Shown here: positions 13,900 through 53,343 of the stretch, one piece after another | How the letters are laid out: the number at the start of each line of letters is the position of its first letter | How positions within the stretch are numbered: the first letter of the stretch is position 1 | Origin: Candidatus Diapherotrites archaeon LH_S9 | GTDB taxonomy: Archaea; B1Sed10-29; WALL01; JAGXON01 | Assembly (NCBI GenBank): GCA_023659865.1 | Contig: JAGXON010000002.1 | Coordinates: 39,619-103,618 of the forward strand | DNA length: 64,000 bases | Direction: 5' to 3' | The notes under the pieces: model-generated | What the model was told of the DNA's origin: nothing | Database searches by the model: none | Seen by the model: the letters and a program-made list of their open reading frames with translations, nothing else | Translations under genes and position numbers: made by a program

Positions 13900-13952
13900 A
13901 TGAACTTAAAAGGCAAGCAATAGTATGAACCTAAAAGGCAAGCGATAGTATG
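13900..13952 (+). repeat. Triplicated start region: two 8-codon mini-ORFs (MNLKGKQ*, MNLKGKR*) before the ATG of giant gene 2
   Basis: ATGAACTTAAAAGGCAAGCAATAG and ATGAACCTAAAAGGCAAGCGATAG at 25-nt spacing, then ATGAATTTGAAAGAAAAG. Confidence 0.85.
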
Positions 13953-19900: not shown

Positions 19901-19949
19901 CAACATGCCAAACGAATACGCTGGATGCAAAATCAAAAAAAAACGATAA
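13950..19949 (+). CDS. Giant surface protein 2, 5' part (1999 aa before a frameshift-associated stop)
   Basis: Paralog of giants 1 and 3 (YFAIEDKYYDFLDKLWNKNIPIYKIIDPIEEKGIPTLPLTTLVLLLTIAI); stops just after an A9 homopolymer. Confidence 0.85.
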   Translation: MNLKEKYFAIEDKYYDFLDKLWNKNIPIYKIIDPIEEKGIPTLPLTTLVLLLTIAILGHAFLMPGAAPTQEERIPVTIQTQNQQKQSISEVQVAALYQNQEIASGTTQNGTTQLQLLKGKTIKITAKSTDCNQTTKQIIIAAKTTIILQLQCKTTGKPQAGKCIQIIEGLEHTLLTSPAGSMEPQNCQLTIKKPNGEPKDTNWKIQQENTLILDPNECLTQNHTIQIDCQHHQYHSNPKPLIQEAQTYGEIELNPIDPEAEADADLDNVADSLDPDTQAEGPIVDDNQNNIPDVEEQTSKNNHDNTYAIHIKTKNKTNKPINLITIQATNQKGEPIQPAYDNEIYTDPTENGTAKLEIKQGTKFYLKAIDPQNRYRTALTSTSYTSTPQKIVSITMEKGFPTTTTIQKQKNNQAIDYATLRLKANNKLRQKTTTNHQGKHTFNLKKNGEYTLEITHDNYVPKKVSLTGAQDQTIQLKKLNQNNSGNLEIQTVNAKGIEEPFPQVETKTINLEGITTKTCTTNRQGTCTLKKLLQGNYTLKTRAPGKNNWQTHTQTTIKPGETTYRTLKAIPLAVTLTIRTKVNNYPQENVEVTLFDTTYGQPEKLAKKDSGSTRKVRFNTYKNKKLFLRTEYQSEKGYYGPQITNVFTIQQDTTKTINLKQVKQDIHLKTPKQATSGHTFDTQLKIDLPYQNNKTKQTYRKAEVEVWTGTPGTKINPFATPVLLNPINTYQFKLQPTPQVTTLTYNTYHYNNPSEGKEPSTASKYIKLTITNYEEPQTYSINLPMFARHGTNTNTTIHYRATWETQNGEEIYSHTQNFAQKNITITQGQKWIQTKNPEFHKYRAGFTTQKNTENTTWQQSLSTTQGSIFYLQLQALPRYEMNQYSIPLDTYPPMQGQKPIKTLSYNGKIQKIKGTTQIYETKAETELPTELTISEGSPTPQLKPGNILHTTIQLQAQNPTTTAELQILEDQANTLNYQITKTPKQQQTTIPNIIGHTQTKVKQCRNKKCEWTTPKQPIPTSSLTGEPKEVEIKTVFNNTGDQTQKFNINIQPNGLKETSENTENMTLQPQQQKEFTLTGEGNTLNKKQINIQLNSQTWKTIEHTAATYRMNTYPNPITEHDQEITATINKETHDNTYSITEIKTENRDQEIEITGIINKWLTQDIAENPEQFTKTGLDLETGQITLRAQSRRFGTINKTIKIQGTAITPEKTDHSTTFTTTPEQKSTTYATIHNYWQQPITLTLDEVHQHLETPEGQPAQKQPEDIYQTKHKMQAINADGSTISCGGECDVEENDNIDIPVNGKANVILETKPVFPDEGTPECNNYAQHTRITLETEPEQAGSKKTKTYNFKHNCNYGKTTPGFETLGTTYVTKRETGTEDQITPHSCSALPGQATLCDAEQTSLTLLKKVEQFKNTPKTSTTLTLATANEKITPNTLTKTSNYYGLGTTTTRKKQASQGNLALPTDLTCGVNRITLEKPASAPGIINATVRNRPKVWCDSSQNRFVTGLLNKDEGLKDRYQSTLTLQTTGFQGFDKFREAARTHLLNYLTGGEGLPPSGRNQITFGVKELSGSDLEQGIKDKITDYYKNKNEPIPSLTAYYNQQGTFRGGGKDIQIRIVYKQGTDQGTREKMTSCFVNNLLSLWINGNSPKGIEPSTYVYDLTTCDSVETTFKTPEITGLTFLNEQPKPKGIESARTGETVHPAFDTNANLEECIINAADKGEPISISTDKLLELGKENLELKQENPKDKLVYEDGIEWETTKEKQKRTVEIRCRNQQWLWTPINKMNIFIDGKAPKIDIPSEPGLLIYDEGLATPGGDPPAKFIVKATDHYMEEGGCKVTQAEIGTIQIEEEHIEEEEYYPTSGGSPDCSVSSTPSATEEETEYECTFPSIEVAGLEQAKITVTCTDKHGNENTKTKSATYATSDKMSSYILEEDSVHYPSEIIGKQLTGTGDKDKLPNELFRWKGNTIYSNSEELTLGIRLNMPNEYAGCKIKKKR

Positions 19950-21285: not shown

Positions 21286-21326
21286 CTTTTTAATACAAGA
21301 CGTTTGTTTAATTAACTAGTTTGAAG

Positions 21327-24300
21327 ATGAACCTAAAAGAAAAGTACTTCACAATAGAAGACAAATACTACGACTTCCTCGACAAACTCCAAAACAAAAA
21401 CATACCCATCTACAAAATCATCAACCCAATAGACAAACACGTGCCCAGCCTCCTACTACTAATTCTCCTCACACTAACAACCCTACTTCTCCTAACCTAC
21501 TTCCTGCTCTCCTCCGCCGGAGCAGCAGAAACACAAATGACAGTCGAAGTCTCAAGCGCCAACCAACTACTAACCAACGCAAACGTCACCGCAAAATTCA
21601 ACAAAAAAACAGTCTCAGGCAAAACCAGTTCAAACGGAAAAACCACCCTAAACGTCCCAAACCAAGAACTGAACGTGACCGCCAGAAAAACCGGCTGCAA
21701 ACCAAAAAGCTTGCTGACAACACCAAAAAAAATCCTGAAAATAAGTTTAGCCTGCAACAAAGACGTACTAACCGGATGCCTCGACATAAACGAAAACGTT
21801 CCAAAAGTATACATGCAAACCCCAGACAACTCAAAACCAAGAAACTGTGTCCTACGAGTAACCGACAAAAACGGAGAACCAAAAGACATCGGATGGAAAA
21901 TAAACAAAAAAGAACAAGCCCTAATAATCAATCCAAGCACCTGCTTCAAAGCAAACTACTTCATACACATCTCATGCGACTCACACACATACACCAACAC
22001 CATCAAAAAACTCGTCCAAGAAATAAAGTCCAAGGGAGAAATCACTTTAAAGAAAATCAAGTCAGGAGCAACCAAGTGCAACCTAGTAACTCAAACCGAA
22101 ACAATCGAAAACTCTTCAGGCAACCCAATCCAAGGAATCAAAGTCACAGCAGTCAACAAAGAAGGCACCAAACTCAGCACTCAATGCGATAACACCGTTT
22201 TCGAAGGCATAACCAACGAAAACGGAGAAGTAACACTAAAACTACCGAAAGGAATCAAGTACTTCCTAAGGTACGAGGACCCACAAGAAAGATATTCACC
22301 AGAAACCTCTGACAAAAAAACAGCCAGCGAAAGCGGTTCAAACCCTTTCTATCTCTCAAAAGGCAGCGAAACCCAAATCACAATAGTCAACGAAAACAAC
22401 AATCCAATCAAAATGCCGACAGTGAAAATAAAGAAAGACAATCAAGTGCTCAAAGTCACAAAACCTGAAGACGGAGTCGCAGACATCGCTCTCGAAGAAG
22501 AAGAAAACTACAAAGTCGTAGCAACTCACCCAGATTACTACCCGGGCTCAGGAACCGTTACAGGAGGAAGCAAAACAAGAATCTCGCTCGAAAAAACCAA
22601 AGAAACAGGAACCGCTAAAATAAAAGCAATCAATCACAAGACCAAAACACCGCTCAAAGGAACCAGAATAGAACTAATGCATGAAGGAATAGTTTACAAA
22701 GAATGCGAAACCAAGGAAAACGGAGTATGCAAATGGAAAAACACAGGTACAGGCACATACGGGATAAGAGCGTACGCTCCAGGACAAACAACTTCCCAGA
22801 AATTCGATGAACTTGAAGTCAAAGCCAATCAACTTAACGAAAAAACAATCGAAGTAAACCCCAGGAAAGTAACCCTCACCATTAAAACACTTGTAGAAGG
22901 CGTTCCTCAACAAAACGTGAAAGTCACAGCAGGAGAACAAGAAAAAAACACAAACTCGGAAGGTACCACAAGCTTCGAAATGTATCAAGGACAAAAAATA
23001 AGCATAAAAGCACAATACCAGCAGATGAGGATTCATACAGCAAAATTAACACTAATACAAGACACTGAAAAAACGCTTAAACTAACCGAAGAAAAAGAAA
23101 TAACTCTAACCGCTCCATACACAATACAACCTAAAGCAAGAGACAGCATCCAAATAACAACTCAAGGCACCGGAAAAATCGAAGTATGGTCCGGAGAACA
23201 AGGAGAACTAGACAACGACGTACAAACACCAATCGAACTAGGACCCCTCCAAACAAACAACCTCCCCGAAAACGCCGGAATATTGGTGAGGAAATCCTAT
23301 CCTCTTGGCTCAAGATCAAGCACGGGAGAAGCCTTCAAGTACATTCAAGTAACCAACACGCAGAACCTGCAGTTCACAATACCAATAAAAGCAAAACAAA
23401 CCGCTACAGGAACCACAAAAATCCATTACAGGATCAAGGAAAAAAACTGGAAAGAAAAAACCATCGAAATCAGTGAAATTCCTGTGATTGAGAATCCTGA
23501 GGGAGAAGTTTTCAAAAGATTTTCTGCAGGCTTATCCGAACAAAAACAAGCACAAGAATACCTATGGCGGCAAAGCACTTCAGCTTCACGAAAAGAAACC
23601 GTCTACATTCATTTCAAAGCAAAAGCAAAAACAGAAGCACTCGAGTACAACATACCTATTAACACTGGAAAAGGTCTTGAAATGAAGAAATACGGCGGAA
23701 CAATAACCCAAGAAGACGGAACAGCAACAGAATTGACTGAAAAGCAACTGCAAGGAACCAAAGCAATACTAAAACCAGGAAAACCAATCCACCTGGAAAA
23801 CGAGCTTGAGCTATGGATAAAAACAACAGGAAAAACCCGTGGAATAGGTTCAATCAAGTTCTTCCAGAAACCAGCACTAGACTACTTCATTGGTGGAGAA
23901 ACAAACCCAGAAGAAACTCCAGTAGAAGGAATAGAAGCTTCAATAAAAACAGAAACCGAGATTTGCCCAAAACCAGGCTACGAAGGAACCTGCACATGGA
24001 TCCCATTCAACGTAAACAAAGAACCTCTTGTAACCAGTTCACTGGACGGGACAAGCAGACCAATCCAAATAGAAGTAAAAGCTCGGAACACAGGAGACGA
24101 AACAAAAAACGTGGAGTTAACTGGCATCGACCCAGAACTCACACAACTCTCAATAGACCCAGCGAGCACCTCGATACAACCTGGGGACACAAAAACCATT
24201 TCAATCCAGGGCTCCGCCCAAGAAACCTCAGCGCACGACATGACACTGAAAATGAATGGAAAAACCTGGAGAAAAATAAAACACACTCCAGCAAACTACT

Positions 24301-27300
24301 TGATTAGAACCCGAGGAATAACTAGAAACGGAAGAACAACTGACTACCTCAGCACCTCAACAGACTCAGTCCTCGTAACCTTCCTCCAGAAAACTCCTTC
24401 AAAAGAAAAAAAGCTAACTGAAAACACTCAAGCAACCATCACGCTCCCAAACGGAAGGAAAAACCCTCTTTACACCAGCTACCAACACGAAAACCAGTTC
24501 CACGGAACCCTAGGCAGAACAGATCCAGGACAAGCCAAAGTAAAAGTTAAGCACAAAAACCTCGAACTAAGCAAACCCGAACTAATCCGAGGAATCAAAC
24601 TCACTCCATCACCTGCAAACCCAATAAGAATACCATTAACCCCTATGCATCCGGTGAAAACACGGAACATAAACATTCAAAACAACCGGAAAACCCTAAC
24701 GAAAACAGAAGCAACCATAACACAAGAAGCTCAAGGATACGAACTAGAAACCACAACAACGCCAAACGAAATAAGCCCTATGTCAAACGCAGAAGTCGAG
24801 CTAAGAGCATCGTTAGGCGAAGAGGCACCAGAAGAAAGAACTGCAACACTCGAAATCAAAACAATCACAGGAAGCACCACGAGCACCGACAAATACAAAA
24901 TAAAACTAAGTTACGGAAAAAAAACAGGACCAGAAGGAATAGAAGGACTGAAAGTATTCAGAGAAACCGAAAAAATAAATCCAGACTCATGCGCATTCAT
25001 CACAAGTGAGAACGCAAAAACAGCTTACTTATGCGACTCAGAACAAGCCAGCAAAGCAATAATCCAAAGTTACAAAGACACCGTAGGCACAGCAGAAAAA
25101 ACTTTTGCACTCGCAGACGACAAAGTAACCCCTCAAACCATCAGCGAACTAACACCACCAGCAGGAATGAAAACAGAAGGAACCGCTTCCTGCGGAACAA
25201 TAACAGCCAAAATAAACAAACAAGAACAAACAGTAGAACTCGAAAGCGCTGAACAACCATGGTGCAACCCAGAAATGCCTTACTACTTCGTGAGCACCCT
25301 GAACAAAAACCCTAAGCTAAGACAGGAAGTTACAGGCACCATAAAATCCGTTTCGCTAACCCAGGAAAGCGAGTCAATCGACCTGAAAACACTTGGAGAA
25401 CTCGGAACCGAACACCGACAAGAAAACCCTGAAGCCCACTCAATAAACTACCAAAACCACCTAGAAAAACCAGGAATCGGATACGACTGGCTTAACCAAA
25501 CCTACGAAAAAACGGGCTACTTCAAAATCGATAAACTAGACGAAAAAACCAACATAGAAATCGGAACCATTGGAACAGGAACAGAAAACCCGGAATTTAT
25601 AAACAACTTGCTCAAATACTGGATTACAGGAAAAAACAAACCAATCAGCTCAAGAACCACAGAAAAAACCATGATAGTCAACCTGAACTCACTAGAAGCA
25701 ACTGAACCACCATCATACCCCAGCTTCGAACTACTGAACCAAAACCTAGAAACCTCCACGCCCGACATAACAGTAGAACTGAACAAAGAAATGGATGAAT
25801 GCAGTGTCTGGACCGAAACACCAAAACGGTTCGGAACCAAACAAAACCCAAAAACAAAATCCGGAAAAGACTTCAGCTACACACTCGCAGGAGAAACAAA
25901 AACAAGGTACCTAAAAATAACCTGCAAAGAGAATAACACCTGGACACACGTGAACACAATGACCGTGGAAATGGACACCGACGTAACCTCAACAATCTAC
26001 CTCGAAAACGCAACCGGAGCCTTCGCAAACACAGGCACATCCTACAAAACAATGAACAAAAACGTGACACTAGTACCCGGTTTCGAGAACCCGGACGAAG
26101 TACAGAAATGTACCTTAACTGATCTTTGGACTAGAAAAGTGAAGCAAGACTGCAAACAAGGCTGCAACATCACCTTCCCAGACGAATTCATCCAACAAAA
26201 TCAAGACCCAAACACAGACGAATACAAACCAGTCTCAAAAAACGCTAACATAACATGCGAAGACGAACACGGTAACAAAAAAAGCACGATAATCCAAGGC
26301 ACTTACTACGATCCAAACCAGTCCTTTATCCTCCTTCAACTCCTTGAAGAACCCGTCGTGCGAAAACAAGAAAAAGAGTGGGGCAACACGTACTATATCA
26401 CTGAATTCGGAACCGGATCCGATTTAACAATCGAAACGTATTCCCCTACTGGAACAGAAACCTGCTACATCCAGAAACAAGAAGCTAGTGGATTTAGGAA
26501 CTGCGAGAGAACTCATGAAACAGACCAGTGCAAAAGGATTCATGGAGAAGAAACGTGCTTGTTCAGGAACTTCTCATGCACGAGCTTGATCAACGAGATG
26601 AACATACAAGAAGGTGTGAACGAAAAAATAATAGAAGTAGGGTGCGTGGAAAAATTTACTGGAGACCAATTCGGTGGAGAATCCACTATAGTACTTGACA
26701 GCAAAGCACCAAAAATAAAATACACGAACGTCGAGGACTACAACGTTAGCACTAACATAAACCCAGGCGTGACGTTCAACATAACTGACGACGGATACTG
26801 GGATAAATACACGAACTGTACAGCAGAAATACTAAGAGGAAACGACCCACTAAGCTATCACACACATCCTTTTTACCCTTCAGCAGAAAACAAAGCACTG
26901 GAAGGAAGCGAAAGCTGGGAAAAACTACCATTAGACTCGGAACTCCTTGAAAAAACACTTTGGCTACCGAACTCCACAGCGCTCTTTATGACTGCAGTAA
27001 GAGGAATGAAGGATAATGGAATCGCTAGCGGTGTCGATAACTTGAACATAACCTGTAATACCACGCTATACAACCCTGAAGTCCAGGGAACAGAAACACC
27101 GGCTAACTCCACCCACATGAATGTGGATGTAGCTGGAAACGCATCAAGCGAAGCAAAAAGTGGCGCAGTAATCCGTGAAATCCCTGACTTCACTGGATTA
27201 GATGTTTACTTCCTGCCACCGGAGAAGAGTAAAGCGAAAAACAAACTAAGAGAACTTGGAAGGAAGTGCTACAACAATTCTTACAATATATCCACTGGAA

Positions 27301-29444
27301 AAAACGATTCTCAGGCTTGTTCCTGGGCAATCTTCGACGCACTAATAAAGTACAGAGATAACAACATATATAGTGACAGCTTCCGTAACCTCTGCTCCTC
27401 CCTCTCGAGCTTAGACAAAGGATTTTTTGCAAAAAGAGGAGAGATAGGTTCACTGCCTTCAGATGAAGATTGTGAATTCCAAGACAGAGGGTACAACTTC
27501 GATGAAAACAATCCTGCATTGTTCTGGTTCAAAGACGTTGGGTTCACGGAAGAACACTACAGAGACGGAAACTGGAATTTACTAGGCGGAGGTGAATTCA
27601 GGCACAGGAACAAACTCAGGCTCGATCCAAACCCCCCATCATCATCCAGCTTGAGCGCATGGCCCTCAACCGCAACTGCTCTCGAGGACCCCGGCGACCC
27701 GGATGCAGACGACTGGATAAAACCAAACTCGATAGAAATAGCGGTAGAACCTGCTGAAATATGGAGAAAATGCAGGCCGGGCGCTAGTATCGAAGCTAAT
27801 GGACCGGTGGAGGCTTCAGTTAATTGCTCTGCTAAAGACGTGGAGAGCAATAGCTTGAACTACTGGCTTTACTTTAATTGGACGAAAGCAAGAGAAGGTA
27901 ACTTCCCCATTCCTGCTAAAAGCAATACATTCATCCCAGAGAACAAGAGACTGAAAAACGGGCTATTGAGCAGTTACGAAGAAGGAGAAAACTACACTGC
28001 CCAAGGAAGCAGAGAAAATTACAACGTTTTTGATCCGCTCCGAGCGAAACACACCTTTCCTTTAGGCGGTGCTTCTGAAGCAGATTTTGATTTAAGTTGT
28101 ATTGCTAGCGATCAGGACTGGAACCGAACTAACGGAACAACAGAAATAACAATCAAAAACAATAAACCGAAAGTAACAGATCTGTCAATAGATTTGCCCG
28201 CCAATAGAGACTCAATACACTGGGGAGAAAGCACCACTGTAACATGTGAAGTAGGAGATTGTGAGGATGAATATGATCAATTAACCGTTGACCTAGAAGA
28301 AAATGGGCCGGACACAAACGGTTGGGAAGACGCGGTGGATCCAGGATCACCAGATAGTAGCGGAGAGGTTACTTACACAAAAGACGCGGAATATCCCTCT
28401 ATCCAATCATATCTGCCTGATGGTTACACGGGAAGATGGGATTACAAGTGCAAGGTAACCGACAAAAACGGGGATACAGGACAAGCCAACACCACCAACG
28501 GAGAAGGCCTCACGATAAATGGAATAAGCGAAATAGTCATAACCGCCACTCCAGAACCTCCTTACAGAACAGGAGATGTAATAGGTCTAGCAGTGTCAGG
28601 GTTCTTCGAGAACGGAGATGAAGTAGAAAATCTTGACTGGTCAACAATCCGCAGTTGTGGGGGATGGAGTCAATCGAGTCAATCCTCTAACACCAACGGG
28701 GGAAGTTTCGAAGAAAAAGAGGACTATGGATGGTCATACGAAGTAACATACGATTCCTGTGACGACGGTAACTGGACAGGAAAAATTGAAGCCAAGCAGT
28801 GGGGAGTAACAGGTGAGAAAGAAATAACAATAGAACCATGGGACGTCGTATGGGAAGGACAGTGCTTTAACACTGTAGACAGTGAAGGATGGTGCTGGCC
28901 TTCAGGAGGAAGCGACTTATCCTGCCGTACAGAAGGCGATCAACCTGGCAACTTCATAAATTGGATCGATTATCCCGGGGACTGGAATTGCGGTGGAAGT
29001 GGAGATAAATGCCCCGCATGGGAGGCCTTTTGCGGTCAAGGTGACTACATGAAATGGAGGGTTTACGGCTCAAATACTACGCTCGGAAGTTTTTCCACGG
29101 AAGAAAAGGATTATGAAGCGATTATTGATGGTGGAGGAAAACAGAATACCGCTACATCTGGAACGTGCTCAGGAAGCGGTTACCCTTATTGTCTATATAG
29201 AAAGGCAAAAGCAAGGTTGAAAAGCAACAGCTTGAGCATCAGTAAAAACTATGGTTTCCCAGACTCCGACACAACTGACAGCAGCTTCACCAGAAGCACG
29301 CCAAAAAGTGTAACACGCAACATTAACGCAAGCGAAAAAGAACCACTTGACCTGAAAGTGAAGTTCACAAACGATTGCTGCGGAAACGGTAGCAATATTG
29401 ACTTTCGCCTGAAAAGAATTAAGTTAAGAACAGTTTGTAGTTAA
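21327..29444 (+). CDS. Giant surface protein 3 (~2705 aa), N-terminal TM anchor, Cys/Trp-rich C-terminal tip
   Basis: N-term MNLKEKYFTIEDKYYDFLDKLQNKNIPIYKIINPIDKHVPSLLLLILLTLTTLLLLTYFL; alternative start 21321. Confidence 0.9.
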   Translation: MNLKEKYFTIEDKYYDFLDKLQNKNIPIYKIINPIDKHVPSLLLLILLTLTTLLLLTYFLLSSAGAAETQMTVEVSSANQLLTNANVTAKFNKKTVSGKTSSNGKTTLNVPNQELNVTARKTGCKPKSLLTTPKKILKISLACNKDVLTGCLDINENVPKVYMQTPDNSKPRNCVLRVTDKNGEPKDIGWKINKKEQALIINPSTCFKANYFIHISCDSHTYTNTIKKLVQEIKSKGEITLKKIKSGATKCNLVTQTETIENSSGNPIQGIKVTAVNKEGTKLSTQCDNTVFEGITNENGEVTLKLPKGIKYFLRYEDPQERYSPETSDKKTASESGSNPFYLSKGSETQITIVNENNNPIKMPTVKIKKDNQVLKVTKPEDGVADIALEEEENYKVVATHPDYYPGSGTVTGGSKTRISLEKTKETGTAKIKAINHKTKTPLKGTRIELMHEGIVYKECETKENGVCKWKNTGTGTYGIRAYAPGQTTSQKFDELEVKANQLNEKTIEVNPRKVTLTIKTLVEGVPQQNVKVTAGEQEKNTNSEGTTSFEMYQGQKISIKAQYQQMRIHTAKLTLIQDTEKTLKLTEEKEITLTAPYTIQPKARDSIQITTQGTGKIEVWSGEQGELDNDVQTPIELGPLQTNNLPENAGILVRKSYPLGSRSSTGEAFKYIQVTNTQNLQFTIPIKAKQTATGTTKIHYRIKEKNWKEKTIEISEIPVIENPEGEVFKRFSAGLSEQKQAQEYLWRQSTSASRKETVYIHFKAKAKTEALEYNIPINTGKGLEMKKYGGTITQEDGTATELTEKQLQGTKAILKPGKPIHLENELELWIKTTGKTRGIGSIKFFQKPALDYFIGGETNPEETPVEGIEASIKTETEICPKPGYEGTCTWIPFNVNKEPLVTSSLDGTSRPIQIEVKARNTGDETKNVELTGIDPELTQLSIDPASTSIQPGDTKTISIQGSAQETSAHDMTLKMNGKTWRKIKHTPANYLIRTRGITRNGRTTDYLSTSTDSVLVTFLQKTPSKEKKLTENTQATITLPNGRKNPLYTSYQHENQFHGTLGRTDPGQAKVKVKHKNLELSKPELIRGIKLTPSPANPIRIPLTPMHPVKTRNINIQNNRKTLTKTEATITQEAQGYELETTTTPNEISPMSNAEVELRASLGEEAPEERTATLEIKTITGSTTSTDKYKIKLSYGKKTGPEGIEGLKVFRETEKINPDSCAFITSENAKTAYLCDSEQASKAIIQSYKDTVGTAEKTFALADDKVTPQTISELTPPAGMKTEGTASCGTITAKINKQEQTVELESAEQPWCNPEMPYYFVSTLNKNPKLRQEVTGTIKSVSLTQESESIDLKTLGELGTEHRQENPEAHSINYQNHLEKPGIGYDWLNQTYEKTGYFKIDKLDEKTNIEIGTIGTGTENPEFINNLLKYWITGKNKPISSRTTEKTMIVNLNSLEATEPPSYPSFELLNQNLETSTPDITVELNKEMDECSVWTETPKRFGTKQNPKTKSGKDFSYTLAGETKTRYLKITCKENNTWTHVNTMTVEMDTDVTSTIYLENATGAFANTGTSYKTMNKNVTLVPGFENPDEVQKCTLTDLWTRKVKQDCKQGCNITFPDEFIQQNQDPNTDEYKPVSKNANITCEDEHGNKKSTIIQGTYYDPNQSFILLQLLEEPVVRKQEKEWGNTYYITEFGTGSDLTIETYSPTGTETCYIQKQEASGFRNCERTHETDQCKRIHGEETCLFRNFSCTSLINEMNIQEGVNEKIIEVGCVEKFTGDQFGGESTIVLDSKAPKIKYTNVEDYNVSTNINPGVTFNITDDGYWDKYTNCTAEILRGNDPLSYHTHPFYPSAENKALEGSESWEKLPLDSELLEKTLWLPNSTALFMTAVRGMKDNGIASGVDNLNITCNTTLYNPEVQGTETPANSTHMNVDVAGNASSEAKSGAVIREIPDFTGLDVYFLPPEKSKAKNKLRELGRKCYNNSYNISTGKNDSQACSWAIFDALIKYRDNNIYSDSFRNLCSSLSSLDKGFFAKRGEIGSLPSDEDCEFQDRGYNFDENNPALFWFKDVGFTEEHYRDGNWNLLGGGEFRHRNKLRLDPNPPSSSSLSAWPSTATALEDPGDPDADDWIKPNSIEIAVEPAEIWRKCRPGASIEANGPVEASVNCSAKDVESNSLNYWLYFNWTKAREGNFPIPAKSNTFIPENKRLKNGLLSSYEEGENYTAQGSRENYNVFDPLRAKHTFPLGGASEADFDLSCIASDQDWNRTNGTTEITIKNNKPKVTDLSIDLPANRDSIHWGESTTVTCEVGDCEDEYDQLTVDLEENGPDTNGWEDAVDPGSPDSSGEVTYTKDAEYPSIQSYLPDGYTGRWDYKCKVTDKNGDTGQANTTNGEGLTINGISEIVITATPEPPYRTGDVIGLAVSGFFENGDEVENLDWSTIRSCGGWSQSSQSSNTNGGSFEEKEDYGWSYEVTYDSCDDGNWTGKIEAKQWGVTGEKEITIEPWDVVWEGQCFNTVDSEGWCWPSGGSDLSCRTEGDQPGNFINWIDYPGDWNCGGSGDKCPAWEAFCGQGDYMKWRVYGSNTTLGSFSTEEKDYEAIIDGGGKQNTATSGTCSGSGYPYCLYRKAKARLKSNSLSISKNYGFPDSDTTDSSFTRSTPKSVTRNINASEKEPLDLKVKFTNDCCGNGSNIDFRLKRIKLRTVCS

Positions 29445-29518: not shown

Positions 29519-32500
29519 ATGAATTCAAATCAAGACGAACCAAGAAAAGACGAATCTCTAATTAACCTGTTCAAGCAGGCAGTGACTGACGAAAAAGGCC
29601 AAACTGGAGTTCTTTCCAAAGAAATAAACGGAGTACCTGTTCCAGTTATCATTGGAGTCTCTCTTCTCGTAGTGCTGGGTGCAGTCTACTTTTTTACTGC
29701 TCCATCCAACCAAGTAGGACTGACCGTGGAAGTAAGTAGTGCAGGAGAACTGGTTAAAGACGCGGAAGTAGCTGCGTTCATGGAAGGAAGCGAATTAACT
29801 TCAGGCAAAACTCAGGCAGACGGTTCTGTGGGATTAAGCGTTCCGAAAGAAGAAGAGATAACAGTCAAGGTAAACAAAGAAGGTTGCAGTGAATTCGAAA
29901 AACAATTAAAGCTTGAAAAAGAACGGTCCTTCCGGGTAAGCCTAACTTGTAGAAAAACAGGTGAACAAAAAGCCTGTCTAGACGAACTAGCGAACAAAAT
30001 CCGGAAAGCCCAGCTCGTAGGAGAACAAGGAGAACAAGTAAACGGGTGCCAAGTAAGAGTACTAGACGAGAACGGTAACCCAACCGACACAAGCTTCAGG
30101 ATCAGTCGAACACAAGAAATCTGGTTTTCAGGCGCTCAATGCCCGCAAAAAAATCAGCAAGTGCAAATCACGTGCGAAGAACACAGGTTTGAAGGAAGCA
30201 TGGACCGACTAATGACCGAAAGCAACGATGACAGAGAAGTAGAACTCACCAAAACCCAGACACAGACCACAATAGAATCCTCGGCACCAACCTCAACCAC
30301 AGAACCTCCAGAAGCAGATACAACATACGAAACTTACGTTAGCGTTAAAAAAGAGTCAGGAGACCCACTCACAACAGCAAAAGTTTACGCTGCAGGTGAG
30401 AACGGAGAAAAACTAGGCTTCGATTACAGAAACGTTAAAGTAGAAGCCACAACAGGTTCAGGCGGTACAGCCACCATTATACTACCAGAAGAAACCGAGT
30501 ACTACATCCACGTTGAAGACATGCAAAACGTTCACAGGCCCTTCCTAACGAACAACAACTACATTGCCTTGAGCACTAGAGACGTAACCGTGAACATGAA
30601 AGAAGGGTTCAAAACCAACATCAAAGTAAAAAACCCAAGAGAAAACGGACCGATTCCAAACGCTGGTCTAAAGCTCAAGCAAGATGGTGAACTCCTGAAA
30701 ACCGGTATCACCGACTCCGATGGCAATGCAAAATTCGTTCTAGCAAAAGAAAACTACGACGTTCACATCATTAAACATGGTTTCATCCCTCAAAGCACTT
30801 CAGTAACAGGAGAAACAGACACAGCAATCGACATGCCCCCACTAGACGAAGAGAACTCCGGACTCGTGACCGCAGAAGTCGTGAACGAGAAAGGAATAGG
30901 AGAATCACTTGAAAACATTTCCCTGAAACTCCAGAACAGTGAAGGAGTAGAATTCAAGTCCTGCACCAGCCAGGAAGACGGTTCATGCGACCTAGGAAGA
31001 GTTCAAGCTGGCGGCCCCTACGAAGTAATTTACGATGGAACAAGCATGGCTTCCATCACAGTAGAAGCAGGCAAGAACACTGAAAAAGAAGTCAACATCA
31101 TCCCTCCTCAGCTTACTCTAACCGTTCCCACGAAAGTAGAGGGAGCGAGAGCAAACGAAGTAACCGTTGAAGTGTGGGACGTCACGTACACTCCAAACGA
31201 CCCATACAAGCTCGGGGAAAAAACCAGTGATAGGAGAGGTCAAGTCGAGTTCACTGTAACTAAGGGAAACAAGATTTACTTGAGGGCGAAAGCAACAAAA
31301 AATAACCAGGAGTACAGGCTTGTCACAACCACTTTCACCATGGAAAATGACGAAGAATACTCCGTTAATTTAAGAGAACTCGAGAAAGATTTTGACATGG
31401 AAATAGTTAACGAGCAAGGTCAAGGAGTAAACTCACTTGCTCAAGGCGGCAAATACACTGCAGAAGTCGCACTTGAAGTACCTTACTACGACCCCCAGAC
31501 AAGAGAGAAGTTCACTAAAATAAACTTCAGGATGTGGACAGGTGACCAAGGAACTGTAAGCGAGATAGACACGACTCCGATAATCATTCGGAACCTGGAC
31601 CGAAGAAATTTCTTGAGAGAGAATCCAGAAGTAGGGAACGTGAGGACGTCAAACCAATTCCTTTTCAATGGTCGAACACCCCCCTCAAACTTATTGAGCT
31701 CTGCATCAAAGTACTTTGAACTAGACTTGAACAACAACTACGACCGACCAACAGTATATCAAATGGAAATCCCTCTAGGCGTCAGATACAAGACAGGAGG
31801 CGACACGGCAAGAATCAACTACAAAGCCGAGTGGAAGAAAGACGGAACCACAGTTCTTTCAACCGGCGAAACCTGGCAAACCAAAACTTACCCGATAAGC
31901 GGTAACCAGCCGAGCGAATTATGGGAAACCGAAAACGATAACTTCTACTTATACAACATCTGGCTCTCTTCAGACAAGCAAGGAGAAAACGAGCTAGAAA
32001 AACCAATTTCTGAAGCAGGAACATTCTACACGCAGTTCAGAGGAGTTGCAAGAAAAAGCACTAACGACTACCCGATCCCAATCTCCGTGCAAAGCCAGGG
32101 CGATTTAATCGACCTAAGCATTAACAGCTACTCTGGATCAATAGAAGAAGCAGGAAACCAAATCAAAAAAATCTATGAAATCACGGACACTGACAACGAC
32201 TTAGTTAACCCGCCAGCAGACGCAACAAACGGAAGAGAACAATACAGCATAAACTCCGACCAGCTCGTGAGCCTGCACGTGCAAATGTCAGCAGAAATAA
32301 AAGGAAACCTCGTTGGAACACAGACCGTCCCAGGCGAAATAAACGTCCTGAACGACCAAAATTACGATCACAAGCACTTGTTCGAAGTAATTGAGGTCTC
32401 CGAAGACCAGAAAACACCTGTAAGCAACCTCATAGGAAAAGTAGTCACTGCATCACAATTCAGTTCAGCAGGAAGGATATACGACCACACAGAAGAAACA

Positions 32501-35500
32501 GTTCCATCAATGAAACTAGATAACATAGCAAAAGGAAGACAGTTCGCAACAATAATGAAACTAGAAAACCGAGGACAAACAAAAAAAGATCTAGAACTGT
32601 ACATGAGAGACGAACACGGAGAAAACGGAGACTACTGGGCCAAGTTCTACGACATGAACCTGCCTATCAAGATAGAAAAACCAACCGCGGACCAGATCAT
32701 AACTAAGGACACAGAAGTATTAATAGAAGGAACCTCAGTCAAAGATATCTCTAACTTCACGATAGAAAGCACAAACACCAATGGAATGACTCCAATAAAC
32801 AACTACATTTACTTCAACGAGACAAAAAAGTTCTACGCCCTGTACTCACCATCAGAAACCGGGAATTACACAGTACACGCGAGCACGTCCGTGAACGGAA
32901 CCCGATTTAAAGACACGCAAGAATTCAAAGTGCACGACTTCCCGAGCGTGGAAATCAACAACATGGAAACTACCGCAGAAGACGGAGAAATAGCCGTGGG
33001 CGAACCAGTTAAAACCACAGCAACCGTGACAAACAACGGAAACAAACCAGCAAAGTACACGAACATAAAAACAGGAAACAGAAACACGAGAATTGGACCG
33101 TACCTAACCCTTTCAATACCAATTCAAGGCAAAACCTGGAAAAACGCTACGCTTGGAACCATACCAGAAGGCGGAACAAAAACTGTTGAATTCTCCTGGA
33201 CACCGACCACACCCCCAGCCACAGAAGTGACAGCAGAAACAGGTTTCATGGAAGAAAAAGGAACAAAAATGACTACGCTGGAAGAACACGATAACTCCAT
33301 GGAAGAACTAACAGTTCACGCGGCAACCAACAAGACGTTCCCCGACATCGGAGTCACAGACCTCGACTACTCAGACGAAGTATGGGAAGGAAACTCAACA
33401 AAAATTAAGTTCAACGCAATGAACTTCGAGCCGCCAGCAAGAAAAGCTTATTTCAGTGACCCCGACTACGGAGAAAGCGAAGAAAGCAGCTACGGAAACT
33501 TTGAAGAAAAGAAAGCTGGTGCAGGACTAATGGACTGGCTAAGTAACACAGACAAAGCTTACAGATCCACAATTATCTTCGACACCACAAAAAACGCTAT
33601 CCCAGACAGAGTCAGCGGAGGACCCTTATACAATTACATGCGAGCTGGATTAAGAGTAGCCTGGAAAGGAGAAAGACCAGTATACGTTACAAACTCTTCA
33701 GGTTCCAAGTTCGTTTACAATGGCACTAACGGAGGAGCCTGGGTACCGGCTGACAGCTGCAGCTTAAGTGAAGATGACTGCAAAGACTGGATTAATGCCA
33801 CCGGCTGGACTAATAGTTTATCAACAGACGAGTACGGAGGATTCTACAAGACGACAGGCAATGTAACGGAACTCGCTGAAAAAGGTAGAAAATTCAACTC
33901 CCACAGTACTGGCTGGAAAGCGAAGAATCTAGTCATGAAACCAGGAAAAATCATGAACAACTCCCCCGAAGGAAATCAAAGAATCAGACCAGAAACAATT
34001 CAAAACATCGCTGCAGACTCATCCACTTCAGTGAACTTCAGAACACCCAAGCTGGAAAGCAATCAAAGCTACTGGATCTGCACCCTGTATCACAAAAACG
34101 GAGAATACAGAGGAGACTACAGCTCGTCAAACAACTGCGAAGAAATTGAGATAGACGTGCGTCCACTACCACTCCTAGGAAAAATCCGTAGCCTCGAACA
34201 ACACGAAGCATCAGGAGACTGGGTTATAGGAGGAACACAAGGAGCTGGAACAACCGTAGAAGGTTACAACATAGAGAAAATGCTCCAGCAACAGAAATAC
34301 AATCAAGCAACGGATCGCCTGATGGAAGTAAACTGGACGCAAGCACTCGGAGAACCAGAAACCAAGCTGATGCACCAAAACATTACAGTAAAACCAGGAG
34401 AAAAAGAATTTGTAATTGCAATGGCAAAAGGAGACTCAACCTCACTAACCCAAGAAAACAGTGAAATGGAAACCTACTTGTTCGAAGAAAGAAACTATCC
34501 AGGACCAGGAGAACCAAACAAATGGAGTCAAGCAACCTACGACCACGGACTAGTCGACTTCGACACTCAATTACAAGCACTTGACAAAAACCTGAACCTT
34601 GCTAACGTCAACGAGCAAGAAAACAGTATAGACATGTCAGCCAACCTAATCGCAGTAAAAGTAATCAGGTACAGCGCAGGAAACACGGACGAAGGAACCG
34701 CGCTCGGACCAGAAGAAAACGGTATACCAAGCCAGAAAGTAATCCTATCAGGAAAAGGAATCGACGACGAAGAAAAAAATGCTTACTTCGACTACGAAAA
34801 CATGATCGAAGGAAACGCCTTCATAGCAGAAAACATGAACCTGAACCCAGGAAAAAACTTTAAAGTAACCGCAAGAAGCCCAAGATTCGGAGAAATGAAC
34901 ACCGCTTACTTCGTAGGGGGAGTAGACCTAGAAATACAACTAAGCAAAATCGACGACTTCAATTTCACCGAAGGAATAAACAATCACGGAACCTTCGAAC
35001 AAAGTGAACGAATCAACATCACGAACTACTGGAACCACGAAATAAATGTCTCGACACTGGAATTCATGGACTACTGGGTTAAAAAATACTACGGAACCAG
35101 TCCACGCGTTACAGAAATATACGAAAGCAACGGAGATCCAACCTGCACCCAATCAATGGAGTGTGAAGGATTACCAATTCCAGGAAACGAAGGATACGCG
35201 ACAATAGAAGTGGATGGAAGCGCAGGGTCCACTTGCAGAGGAACAAGAACCTCATGGCTGCACGCCAAAGTAGGAGGAGAAGAAGAAAAAGAAAGCGTGA
35301 CATTCGCCTGCCCAGGAACCATCCCGGCCGGAGAAGTAGCGTTTGGAAAACCGATAGCAAGAGAAACAACCGCTCCAGAAGACATTGAAAGAAGAGCAGG
35401 TAAAACACCGTGCGAAATAGCAACAGGAGAAGGAAAAAACGCAACCAACATAACTCGACTCTGTGACGCGCAACAGCTTGCAATGGCAATAGCAGACGAC

Positions 35501-38110
35501 GCAGAATCTTCTTCAGAAGGCACCAGCTACACTTACGCTTTCGGAGGAGACAGCCTAATAACCGCAGGAGCAAACGAAGTCTACGTAGAAGCAGACAAAG
35601 TCTACGACGGAAACACACCAACCGGGTTCATAGAAAGAACGGAAATCAGTCAAAGCAATCCTTCAACTCGACAAATCGTGATGCCAACAGACACCCACAT
35701 CACTTGCGGTATAGTAGAAGTCGAGTACACTCAAAAAAACAGGGATGCCTACGTAAACTACACCGTCCAAAGCATCAGCGACTGGTGCGATAAAGACGTT
35801 GGGTACGCCTACGGAATGGCTGCACTAAACTATGACAAAGGGCTGAGACCTGACAGCGGTTACGGAAGATACTTCGCGTTCAAAAACAAGAACTCGGAAC
35901 AAAAGTTCCTGAACACTTTAGAAGAAGTGATAAGAAAAAGAAAAGTAAATGGAACACCTGAATTCCAGGATCCTATGCTGGAAGACTTCTTTAGCTACGC
36001 AGAAACCAATATCAGCTACGTAGGAAATAATACGAGCTCAATAGAAGGAAAGACGGTAGCAGGAACAGGTTTAAGACACTACTACGAACTAGACTACGAA
36101 GACTTCCAAAAAGGTGAAGCAGGAGCAGTAGATAAAATAGATTACGCGAGCCCAAAAGAAGCTGATCCCGTACTAGGTTACTACAATGTCCGAGAGCTCA
36201 CTTCAGGAAGAGTTATTGAAACCGGACTAATCTACGACAACGCTGAAGTAACTGAAGAAAATCTGGGTATCCACAGACAAGAACTGATCAAAAACCTTGC
36301 AGAATTCTGGCTTTACAACAAAAGTAGTTTCACTGGAAACGAGAAACAAACAACGGACTTCAGCACGATAACTGCAAGACAACCTACTGCTGACGCTGGA
36401 AAAGATCAGTCCGTCGGAACCGGAGAAACCATTGATTTGAACGGAAGCGATTCGTACGACCTGAAAGGCGGGGTAATCGACTCCTACAACTGGACTATTA
36501 CTAACATGAGCAAAATAGAAGCTGAAGAATACACGGGCGACCTAGATAATGCACAATTAAGATATGCATCAGACGCCAGCGAAGGATTCTACCTAGACCT
36601 GCCTGAAGGCAACAATTCAACCTATGCGCTAGATATAAATGGATCACTGAACGTGACTGTAAGAGGAAGAAGAAAAGGCAATAATAACGTCCACCTCGAT
36701 ATATTAATAGATGGAGAGGAAAAAGCATCTACAGAAATCGACTCAAATAGCTGGGGAGTAAAAGAAGCAGGAGAGATTAAGATAGAGGATAGCGGATCGC
36801 ATAACCTAACCATAAAAACAGATAACCGAGTGAGAATCGACTGGATAAAGTTCAGCGGAGCAACAATAAAAACCATTGAAGATGAAGAACGACCCTCCTT
36901 TTCGATAGGCACTGCAGGAACTTATCAAGCAGAACTAACAGTAGCCGATAACGATGGACTGAAGGACACGGACACGGCAACAATCTACGTCTCGGAACAA
37001 CCCGGCAAGCTGAATATGACTAAAGCAACAAAAGACAGTCTCTCAGGAGCCACAAACGTAGACGTAGAAATAGAGAACACTGGCAGTCGCGCAAAAACTG
37101 GAGTGATATCCTTCTACCACGTGCCAACAAACGATTTAAGCAATAACTGCAGGAGAATACAAGCAGGTTATACCCCGCACACCCCTGAATCCACTGGGAA
37201 CATATCTGGTGGGACCATAGCCACCAAAGAAATCCAGACCACCCACCCCATTGATCCAAATAAGAAGCTGGTGGCAGTGCTTTCAGGAACCGGGACCTAC
37301 AACAATCTAAGCTGCGACAAACACATTAAAACAACTGGAACACTAACAGCAATAGCCAGTTCAGACAAGGATACTGCAATCGAAGGCGAGGATATTACAT
37401 TCAGTGGAAGCGGTTCGTACGACGACCCGAACGGAAACATCGTCCTCTACGAATGGGACTTCGGGGACAGTTCACCAACAGAAACCGGTGTAGTAGCCCC
37501 TCACAGTTACAGTTTACCCCGTCCTTACGCTGTTACTTACACTGTTACTCTTACAGTAACCGACGACGAAGGCAACACGGCTACAGACACATTACCTGTG
37601 GAGATAATCCCAGGAGGAGGATCTACACGAGAAATAATAGACGAGTGGAATTTCGACACCCAGGGTATTACTAGTGATTGGGATGCACATGGAAGCGCCT
37701 ACAGAAATCTGATGAGCGGAAACCCAGTGACCTGGTGCCAAGATCTTCCTGCAGGAGACGGTCAGTACATGCAAATAGGGGGCAGTTCCCAATCTACTGC
37801 TAGCGTGTCGAATACAATGCATCTTAGTGGCTACAAGGACGTGAATATAGAGTTTAGATTAGCATTTTCATTAGCTGGCACTGATAAACACGCTGAGGTA
37901 GTATGGGAAGGCAGTTCCGGACTAGACACCTTAATAGGCTTTCAAGGAGGTACTGACTGCCCTGAAAGAACGAGGAACTGGCAGACTTATACATACGACC
38001 TAGGTAAAGGAGAAGCAACTAATGAGCTAATATTTGAACTAGAAAACGCAGGAGGAGATTATGACTACCTCTACGTAGATAACATAATCATTTCAGGAAT
38101 ACCAGATTAA
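29519..38110 (+). CDS. Giant surface protein 4 (2863 aa) with CarboxypepD_reg-like repeats, PKD domains, CBM-like insert and terminal jelly-roll-like domain
   Basis: N-term TM NGVPVPVIIGVSLLVVLGAVYFF; PKD signatures NGSDSYDLKGGVIDSYNWTI and SGSGSYDDPNGNIVLYEWDFGD; C-term EWNFDTQGITSDWD...YLYVDNIIISGIPD. Confidence 0.9.
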   Translation: MNSNQDEPRKDESLINLFKQAVTDEKGQTGVLSKEINGVPVPVIIGVSLLVVLGAVYFFTAPSNQVGLTVEVSSAGELVKDAEVAAFMEGSELTSGKTQADGSVGLSVPKEEEITVKVNKEGCSEFEKQLKLEKERSFRVSLTCRKTGEQKACLDELANKIRKAQLVGEQGEQVNGCQVRVLDENGNPTDTSFRISRTQEIWFSGAQCPQKNQQVQITCEEHRFEGSMDRLMTESNDDREVELTKTQTQTTIESSAPTSTTEPPEADTTYETYVSVKKESGDPLTTAKVYAAGENGEKLGFDYRNVKVEATTGSGGTATIILPEETEYYIHVEDMQNVHRPFLTNNNYIALSTRDVTVNMKEGFKTNIKVKNPRENGPIPNAGLKLKQDGELLKTGITDSDGNAKFVLAKENYDVHIIKHGFIPQSTSVTGETDTAIDMPPLDEENSGLVTAEVVNEKGIGESLENISLKLQNSEGVEFKSCTSQEDGSCDLGRVQAGGPYEVIYDGTSMASITVEAGKNTEKEVNIIPPQLTLTVPTKVEGARANEVTVEVWDVTYTPNDPYKLGEKTSDRRGQVEFTVTKGNKIYLRAKATKNNQEYRLVTTTFTMENDEEYSVNLRELEKDFDMEIVNEQGQGVNSLAQGGKYTAEVALEVPYYDPQTREKFTKINFRMWTGDQGTVSEIDTTPIIIRNLDRRNFLRENPEVGNVRTSNQFLFNGRTPPSNLLSSASKYFELDLNNNYDRPTVYQMEIPLGVRYKTGGDTARINYKAEWKKDGTTVLSTGETWQTKTYPISGNQPSELWETENDNFYLYNIWLSSDKQGENELEKPISEAGTFYTQFRGVARKSTNDYPIPISVQSQGDLIDLSINSYSGSIEEAGNQIKKIYEITDTDNDLVNPPADATNGREQYSINSDQLVSLHVQMSAEIKGNLVGTQTVPGEINVLNDQNYDHKHLFEVIEVSEDQKTPVSNLIGKVVTASQFSSAGRIYDHTEETVPSMKLDNIAKGRQFATIMKLENRGQTKKDLELYMRDEHGENGDYWAKFYDMNLPIKIEKPTADQIITKDTEVLIEGTSVKDISNFTIESTNTNGMTPINNYIYFNETKKFYALYSPSETGNYTVHASTSVNGTRFKDTQEFKVHDFPSVEINNMETTAEDGEIAVGEPVKTTATVTNNGNKPAKYTNIKTGNRNTRIGPYLTLSIPIQGKTWKNATLGTIPEGGTKTVEFSWTPTTPPATEVTAETGFMEEKGTKMTTLEEHDNSMEELTVHAATNKTFPDIGVTDLDYSDEVWEGNSTKIKFNAMNFEPPARKAYFSDPDYGESEESSYGNFEEKKAGAGLMDWLSNTDKAYRSTIIFDTTKNAIPDRVSGGPLYNYMRAGLRVAWKGERPVYVTNSSGSKFVYNGTNGGAWVPADSCSLSEDDCKDWINATGWTNSLSTDEYGGFYKTTGNVTELAEKGRKFNSHSTGWKAKNLVMKPGKIMNNSPEGNQRIRPETIQNIAADSSTSVNFRTPKLESNQSYWICTLYHKNGEYRGDYSSSNNCEEIEIDVRPLPLLGKIRSLEQHEASGDWVIGGTQGAGTTVEGYNIEKMLQQQKYNQATDRLMEVNWTQALGEPETKLMHQNITVKPGEKEFVIAMAKGDSTSLTQENSEMETYLFEERNYPGPGEPNKWSQATYDHGLVDFDTQLQALDKNLNLANVNEQENSIDMSANLIAVKVIRYSAGNTDEGTALGPEENGIPSQKVILSGKGIDDEEKNAYFDYENMIEGNAFIAENMNLNPGKNFKVTARSPRFGEMNTAYFVGGVDLEIQLSKIDDFNFTEGINNHGTFEQSERINITNYWNHEINVSTLEFMDYWVKKYYGTSPRVTEIYESNGDPTCTQSMECEGLPIPGNEGYATIEVDGSAGSTCRGTRTSWLHAKVGGEEEKESVTFACPGTIPAGEVAFGKPIARETTAPEDIERRAGKTPCEIATGEGKNATNITRLCDAQQLAMAIADDAESSSEGTSYTYAFGGDSLITAGANEVYVEADKVYDGNTPTGFIERTEISQSNPSTRQIVMPTDTHITCGIVEVEYTQKNRDAYVNYTVQSISDWCDKDVGYAYGMAALNYDKGLRPDSGYGRYFAFKNKNSEQKFLNTLEEVIRKRKVNGTPEFQDPMLEDFFSYAETNISYVGNNTSSIEGKTVAGTGLRHYYELDYEDFQKGEAGAVDKIDYASPKEADPVLGYYNVRELTSGRVIETGLIYDNAEVTEENLGIHRQELIKNLAEFWLYNKSSFTGNEKQTTDFSTITARQPTADAGKDQSVGTGETIDLNGSDSYDLKGGVIDSYNWTITNMSKIEAEEYTGDLDNAQLRYASDASEGFYLDLPEGNNSTYALDINGSLNVTVRGRRKGNNNVHLDILIDGEEKASTEIDSNSWGVKEAGEIKIEDSGSHNLTIKTDNRVRIDWIKFSGATIKTIEDEERPSFSIGTAGTYQAELTVADNDGLKDTDTATIYVSEQPGKLNMTKATKDSLSGATNVDVEIENTGSRAKTGVISFYHVPTNDLSNNCRRIQAGYTPHTPESTGNISGGTIATKEIQTTHPIDPNKKLVAVLSGTGTYNNLSCDKHIKTTGTLTAIASSDKDTAIEGEDITFSGSGSYDDPNGNIVLYEWDFGDSSPTETGVVAPHSYSLPRPYAVTYTVTLTVTDDEGNTATDTLPVEIIPGGGSTREIIDEWNFDTQGITSDWDAHGSAYRNLMSGNPVTWCQDLPAGDGQYMQIGGSSQSTASVSNTMHLSGYKDVNIEFRLAFSLAGTDKHAEVVWEGSSGLDTLIGFQGGTDCPERTRNWQTYTYDLGKGEATNELIFELENAGGDYDYLYVDNIIISGIPD

Positions 38111-47510: not shown

Positions 47511-47600
47511 CGGGCCCGGCGAGAACTCCAATCCATTTTTTTGAACTCGCGATCTACTGCTCCGAAGGCAGTCGCCTTATCCGAACTAGGCTACGGGCCC
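47511..47600 (-). tRNA. tRNA-Arg(TCG) with ~15-nt insertion in the T-loop
   Basis: GGGCCCG...CGGGCCC acceptor; ACTGC-CTTCGGA-GCAGT anticodon arm; GCGAG/CTCGC T-stem enclosing 22 nt. Confidence 0.85.
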
Positions 47601-52196: not shown

Positions 52197-52300
52197 GGGG
52201 TCGTAGGGTAGCCTGGCATCCTGCGAGCTTTGGGACCTTTTTCGCTCAAGCGAAGAAGGCCAAACAGCTTGTGACCGGAGTTCAAATCTCCGCGACCCCA
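52197..52300 (+). tRNA. tRNA-Pro(TGG) with canonical-position (37/38) intron
   Basis: GGGGTCG...CGACCCC; CGAGC-TTTGGG[intron ~31 nt]A-GCTTG; GGAGTTCAAATCTCC. Confidence 0.9.
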
Positions 52301-52315: not shown

Positions 52316-52467
52316 GCAGGGGTCCCAAAGCCTCTTTCAGAGCTTTCGGGTTCTGAGGGCTTTAATGGTCAAATGGGCAGGACTTAAGATCCTGTGGCTT
52401 TTTGTTCGACCTTAGGGTCGAGGGAAACACACAAGTGCCTTCGAGGGTTCGAATCCCTCCCCCTGCA
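52316..52467 (+). tRNA. tRNA-Leu(TAA) with insertions in both the D-loop and the variable arm
   Basis: GCAGGGG...CCCCTGC acceptor; CAGGA-CTTAAGA-TCCTG; GAGGG-TTCGAAT-CCCTC; extra hairpins between D-stem strands and within the variable arm. Confidence 0.85.
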
Positions 52468-53254: not shown

Positions 53255-53343
53255 GCCTCGGTAGCTCAGTTGGAAGAGCGCCACCTTGGTAAGGTGGAGG
53301 CTTCCCGGGTTCGAACGATCAACAGAAACTCCCGGCCGAGGCT
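53255..53343 (+). tRNA. tRNA-Thr(GGT) with ~14-nt insertion in the T-loop
   Basis: GCCTCGG...CCGAGGC; CCACC-TTGGTAA-GGTGG; CCGGG/CCCGG T-stem enclosing 21 nt. Confidence 0.85.

Follow-up and report, generated by a model that had tools for sequence, protein, structure and literature searches.

Archaeal lineages in which single tRNA genes carry multiple introns were listed in 2014 as Crenarchaeota, Nanoarchaeum, Methanopyrus, Methanothermobacter, Korarchaeum and ARMAN-1/2 (PMC4033280). Pyrobaculum calidifontis, one of the Thermoproteales, harbours 71 introns in 46 tRNA genes (PMC8450103), and the work of Fujishima et al. 2010, as summarised in PMC4090602, describes for the Thermoproteales a large-scale intron transposition with similar introns across different tRNAs. 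Introns at various positions also occur in the tRNA genes of ARMAN-1/2 (Micrarchaeota), whose tRNAs are processed by an epsilon2 splicing endonuclease, and multiple-intron tRNAs are known from Methanothermobacter thermautotrophicus and Methanopyrus kandleri (PMC4033280). In the literature, diverse tRNA introns have been linked to splicing endonucleases (EndAs) with a second subunit or with special loops: according to a review, introns with a relaxed bulge-helix-bulge (BHB) are efficiently removed only by (alpha-beta)2 and epsilon2 EndAs (PMC6379350), and broad EndA specificity has been tied to the CSL and ASL loops (PMC12397907).

The tRNA-Leu(TAA) gene described here lies in a window of 64,000 nucleotides (the whole stretch of DNA that was analysed) from an assembly of 670,822 bases in 38 contigs, which is about 66% complete. 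Its RpoA' matches two 'Candidatus Diapherotrites archaeon' records best, at 64% and 63%; judged by these, the host belongs to Diapherotrites-like DPANN archaea and not to the Thermoproteales. The sequence-only reading of this locus had drawn a comparison with the Thermoproteales, which holds for the multi-intron kind of gene but not for the host. Like the Thermoproteales, the host has BHB introns outside position 37/38, more than one of them per gene and similar introns across different tRNAs. However, it belongs to another lineage, and while crenarchaeal EndAs are mostly of the (alpha-beta)2 type with a Crenarchaea-specific loop (PMC4033280, PMC12397907), only one enzyme, apparently of the alpha4 type and without this loop, was found in the host. 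With ARMAN-1/2 it has in common that it is an ultrasmall DPANN archaeon with variously placed introns and relaxed motifs, but in ARMAN-2 the enzyme is of the epsilon2 type, fused from three units and with an ARMAN-specific loop (PMC12397907), whereas the host protein is a plain 170-aa alpha subunit that could be aligned over its full length to the M. jannaschii EndA. M. thermautotrophicus and M. kandleri are similar in having more than one intron per tRNA gene outside the Crenarchaeota; the host appears to differ in its at least 10 noncanonical introns, found in an incomplete genome and including T-loop introns without one flanking helix.

No earlier report of tRNA introns in the Diapherotrites lineage was found in the open-access literature searched by titles and openings of abstracts, with subscription papers and preprints mostly outside this scope, and a novelty at the level of the lineage is therefore claimed provisionally. 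Two-intron tRNAs as such are already known. Of interest is the pattern in this lineage in combination with an apparently plain alpha4 EndA; the presence of relaxed introns and such an enzyme in one lineage makes the idea of their co-evolution directly testable.

The tRNA-Leu(TAA) gene and its two insertions

The gene comprises 152 nt on the forward strand (52316-52467) and does not encode the CCA end. The sequence-only reading had placed here a tRNA-Leu(TAA) with insertions in the D-loop and the variable arm and an uninterrupted anticodon loop, and both coordinates and description proved to be right. The acceptor stem (GCAGGGG/CCCCTGC, discriminator A), the anticodon loop (CTTAAGA, anticodon TAA) and the T-arm (GAGGG-TTCGAAT-CCCTC) are intact, while the D-loop contains an extra double stem and the variable arm (V-arm) holds the hairpin TTCGACC-TTAG-GGTCGAG. 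The 152-nt gene is better folded than its shuffled versions (z = -3.2). Only 15 nt upstream, on the same strand, a tRNA-Pro(TGG) gene with an anticodon-loop (37/38) intron is located (52197-52300).

In its intact form the Leu(TAA) gene is reported neither by ARAGORN nor by the Rfam tRNA model at gathering score. After in silico removal of both insertions ARAGORN calls Leu(taa), and this applies equally to the two products considered here, with 33 and 33 nt or with 33 and 35 nt removed, which correspond to predicted mature tRNAs of 86 and 84 nt, respectively. Removal of the V-arm insertion alone gives a shortened Leu(taa) starting inside the D intron, and with the D insertion alone removed no tRNA is reported.

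The D-loop intron (52333-52365, forward strand, 33 nt) is located just 5' of G18G19, between positions 17 and 17a. It is exactly absent in the Leu(TAA) gene of the relative G002, where the site reads ...CCAGAGCC|TGGTCAAATGGG, and at precisely this junction a strict BHB can be formed (52327-52366, forward strand). Its central helix pairs 52327-52330 (AAAG) with 52360-52363 (CTTT), the bulges are 52331-52333 (CC^T) and 52364-52366 (AA^T), the inner helix has at least 8 bp and the outer helix only 2 bp. Dinucleotide shuffles produce such a BHB, with an inner helix of at least 8 bp, in 0.035% of cases at exactly this junction and in 0.4% if any register within 2 nt is accepted. A second strict register for the D intron, of 31 nt, was rejected because the product tested, a single combination with the 35-nt V-arm intron, is not called as a tRNA by ARAGORN and because the 33-nt product agrees with the relatives.

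For the V-arm intron two 5' ends have to be considered, with the 3' end unchanged. BLAST adjacency and the uninterrupted sequence GGCTT|AGTGCC in relatives delimit an intron of 33 nt (52401-52433, forward strand), whereas the strict BHB delimits one of 35 nt (52399-52433), which starts 2 nt earlier. In the 35-nt form the central helix pairs 52393-52396 (TGTG) with 52428-52431 (CACA), the bulges are GC^T and CA^A, and the inner helix consists of 4 bp, a G/G mismatch and a further 7 bp. With the 33-nt junction, just two of the four pairs of the central helix are formed, so that no strict BHB results. The 5' splice site of this intron is therefore uncertain by 2 nt. ARAGORN accepts both forms of removal, in Leu(TAA) as Leu(taa) and in the second leucine gene described below as Leu(tag). 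Outer helices are short in both introns (1-3 bp). If any register up to 2 nt away is accepted, 2.6% of dinucleotide shuffles also yield a V-arm BHB. This fold alone is therefore modest evidence, and the relatives and the second leucine gene carry more weight in the case for the V-arm intron.

A blind search, in which zero to two BHB-like introns are excised before ARAGORN is asked for a tRNA, gave the 33-nt D intron with the 35-nt V-arm intron as its top Leu(taa) solution. When 150 pieces of 290 nt were drawn at random from the window and treated alike (14,383 trials), no tRNA was obtained on that strand. In several intronless or single-intron genes, however, the search added a spurious intron, located in flanking sequence or close to an end of the tRNA, and its top solution for Leu(TAG) was wrong. 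Its solutions were therefore relied on only if support for the junction came from a paralogue, a relative, the T-stem or a long inner helix.

Leucine tRNA genes of relatives and competing explanations

The Leu(TAA) gene of G002 lacks exactly both stretches: it reads GCAGGGGTTCCAGAGCC|TGGTCAAATGGGCAGGACTTAAGATCCTGTGGCTT|AGTGCCTACGAGGG..., with 33 nt missing at each bar. When the gene is compared with the relatives by BLAST, query position 85 is followed directly by position 119 in G002, G009 and G049. A tRNA-Pro gene lies directly upstream of Leu(TAA) in several relatives too (e.g. G002, G007, G017), and this recurring gene order supports the orthology of the genes compared. Other leucine genes are interrupted in a different way. 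Leu(TAG) of G004 has an insertion in the anticodon loop only and a short V-arm, and Leu(TAA) of G012, read by eye, contains an anticodon-loop intron and an apparent D-loop insertion at a different place. A scan of the genome collection, from which the host genome was possibly excluded, found no V-arm insertion of 8-38 nt in tRNA-Leu genes, and among the 19 genomes of the class only the two Leu genes of the host match this pattern.

The second of these two is a tRNA-Leu(TAG) gene on another contig (C32). It contains the identical V-arm insertion with identical flanks and has no D insertion, and outside these parts the two genes show about eight differing positions and a 2-nt gap (our own count). 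The identical sequence in two genes and its absence in the relatives examined point to a recent gain of the V-arm intron, probably common to both Leu isoacceptor genes. The simplest account suggested is a spread of the intron from one of the two genes to the other, through transposition or gene conversion; it resembles the intron transposition of the Thermoproteales (PMC4090602).

Taken together, relative G002, the BHB folds, the behaviour of ARAGORN on the spliced forms and the blind search make two BHB-type introns at unusual positions, as already proposed from the sequence, the best reading of the locus. With a probability of about 0.9 we regard it as a functional tRNA-Leu(UAA) gene with two predicted archaeal BHB introns, in the D-loop and in the variable arm, of which the latter is probably a recent gain shared with the second Leu gene. 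By analogy with known archaeal tRNA processing we infer that both introns are spliced in the cell. In the transcript, exon nucleotides would pair with the 3' end of each intron to form a 4-bp helix between two 3-nt bulges, a fold which is present in the sequence for the D intron at the junction of the relatives and for the V-arm intron with the 5' cut 2 nt earlier. EndA would cut both bulges, and an RNA ligase would join the exons to a tRNA-Leu of 84-86 nt.

Alternatively, the D-loop insertion might be spliced alone and the V-arm insertion retained as a very long variable arm. As a class II tRNA, tRNA-Leu has a variable arm anyway, and the insertion sits in the sole arm that tolerates a change in length; its hairpin is stable (z = -3.1), its copies in the two Leu genes do not differ, as would suit a structure that is retained, and its strict BHB is not exactly at the junction of the relatives. 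However, such a BHB is available only 2 nt away, most relatives examined have a short V-arm of the form GGCTTAGTGCC, and ARAGORN, as described above for Leu(TAA) freed of its D insertion alone, also rejects the unspliced Leu(TAG). Moreover, on general grounds, retention would require the LeuRS to tolerate a V-arm extended by about 33 nt. We therefore consider retention unlikely in comparison with the removal of both introns. Still less probable, to the point of being hardly credible, is a decaying pseudogene or an assembly artefact with another tRNA-Leu(TAA) serving the cell: in an assembly of this completeness a second copy, which the sequence-only reading had named as an argument against a functional gene, could be missing, but none was found in the assembled part, all features of a mature tRNA are intact, both insertions have BHB potential, the V-arm insertion is repeated exactly in Leu(TAG) on another contig, and introns occur in many further tRNA genes of the host.

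Further interrupted tRNA genes in the host and its class

The at least 10 noncanonical introns of the host are distributed over nine genes, the two Leu genes included, so that at least seven of them lie beyond the Leu genes of this incomplete assembly. T-loop introns of 13-16 nt at position 59/60 are present in Arg(TCG), Thr(GGT), Ser(TGA) and Ala(TGC). In these the T-stem serves as outer helix, one strand of the 4-bp helix is provided by the T-loop bases TTCA or TTCG (with a single mismatch in the helix of Thr and in that of Ala), and the inner helix is 1-3 bp long. Two of them lie in the window and were also found by the blind search. The tRNA-Thr(GGT) gene (53255-53343, forward strand) has a 14-nt intron with a relaxed BHB, in which three of four pairs of the central helix are formed and the T-stem is the outer helix. 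The tRNA-Arg(TCG) gene (47511-47600, reverse strand) has a 15-nt intron with the central helix TTCA/TGGA, again the T-stem as outer helix and no inner helix. D-loop introns occur also in Val(GAC), Ile(GAT) and Gln(TTG). For Val(GAC) the junction CCCGG|TTAAGAC is given by the intronless paralogue Val(CAC), and for Ile(GAT) and Gln(TTG) the junctions were taken from the BHB search and from reading by eye. Beside Val(CAC), near a contig end (contig C5 of the host assembly G000, near 5440-5520), the 3' part of a tRNA-Gln(CTG) with an apparent D-loop insertion can be seen.

The host genome appears to belong to a Diapherotrites-like class of which several sampled members carry D-loop and T-loop tRNA introns. 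Among the 19 class genomes, tRNA genes interrupted in the D-loop or the T-loop were read in G001, G012 and G016. These three are no fair sample of the class because they were picked for odd-looking hits of the tRNA model. In G001, although it is 92% complete, the Rfam tRNA model matches only eight loci at E <= 0.01 and 15 at E <= 10, compared with 13-54 matches at E <= 0.01 in the other class genomes. The low number is due, at least in part, to the interruption of T-loops, and ordinary tRNA searches can therefore undercount the tRNAs of these genomes.

One group of short insertions (5-11 nt, CCTGCAGG) is defined by the motif GG(G/T)(T/C)TGC(A/G)CC, which has 15 matches in the class, ten in G001 and five in G012, and none in the other 17 genomes. 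Most of the copies that were read lie in the T-loops of various tRNA genes, and a change between T/A and C/G in them closes the same loop. In an Rfam search with five T-loop-intron loci from G012 and G001 the tRNA family alone scored above the gathering score. The group looks like a transposing tRNA intron family common to two orders.

The splicing endonuclease

The host assembly contains one EndA gene, which encodes 170 aa and is matched by both PF02778 and PF01974. Residues 3-170 align with residues 5-171 of the alpha4 EndA of M. jannaschii (1A79; E = 8e-32), and the active-site Tyr, His and Lys are conserved. As far as the primary sequence tells, no loop of the CSL/ASL kind is present, since there is no insertion of more than about three residues relative to the M. 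jannaschii enzyme. The protein thus looks like a plain single subunit of the alpha4 type, for which a tetramer is predicted. A heteromeric enzyme, which the sequence-only reading had suggested to look for, was not found: a profile of the class EndAs (E <= 10) detected one gene each, and no gene for a second subunit, in the incomplete host genome G000 and in G001, G002, G011, G012 and G013. A gene for the RtcB ligase was not found in the host assembly either, an absence which at about 66% completeness is not interpretable.

The occurrence of relaxed T-loop introns together with an apparently plain alpha4 EndA is in tension with the published specificity rule. This tension may be resolved by an alpha4 enzyme of broad specificity, by an undetected partner, or by a cutting that is inefficient but sufficient. 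The Leu introns perhaps do not need a broad enzyme, since their BHBs are strict, with the 2-nt caveat for the V-arm intron and with short outer helices in both. Tentatively, and at somewhat less than even odds, we propose that the whole Diapherotrites-like class has accumulated noncanonical tRNA introns, including the relaxed ones in the T-loop at 59/60, with a plain alpha4 EndA that lacks CSL and ASL. If this is true, the rule that limits the efficient removal of relaxed-BHB introns to (alpha-beta)2 and epsilon2 enzymes would be broken, and the alpha4 enzyme would either have a broad specificity or be aided by a partner.

The only class genome searched in which two EndA genes were detected is G016 (C33:1043-1540 and C41:3484-3981), where D-loop tRNA introns are also present. 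It is possible that G016 represents an (alpha-beta)2 case within the class.

Apart from the tRNA genes, the window contains four neighbouring very long open reading frames of 1999-2863 aa (5759-13891, 13950-19949, 21321-29444 and 29519-38110). The first three of them start alike (e.g. MNLKEKYFAIEDKYYDFLDKL); this is possibly a tandem family of large surface proteins.
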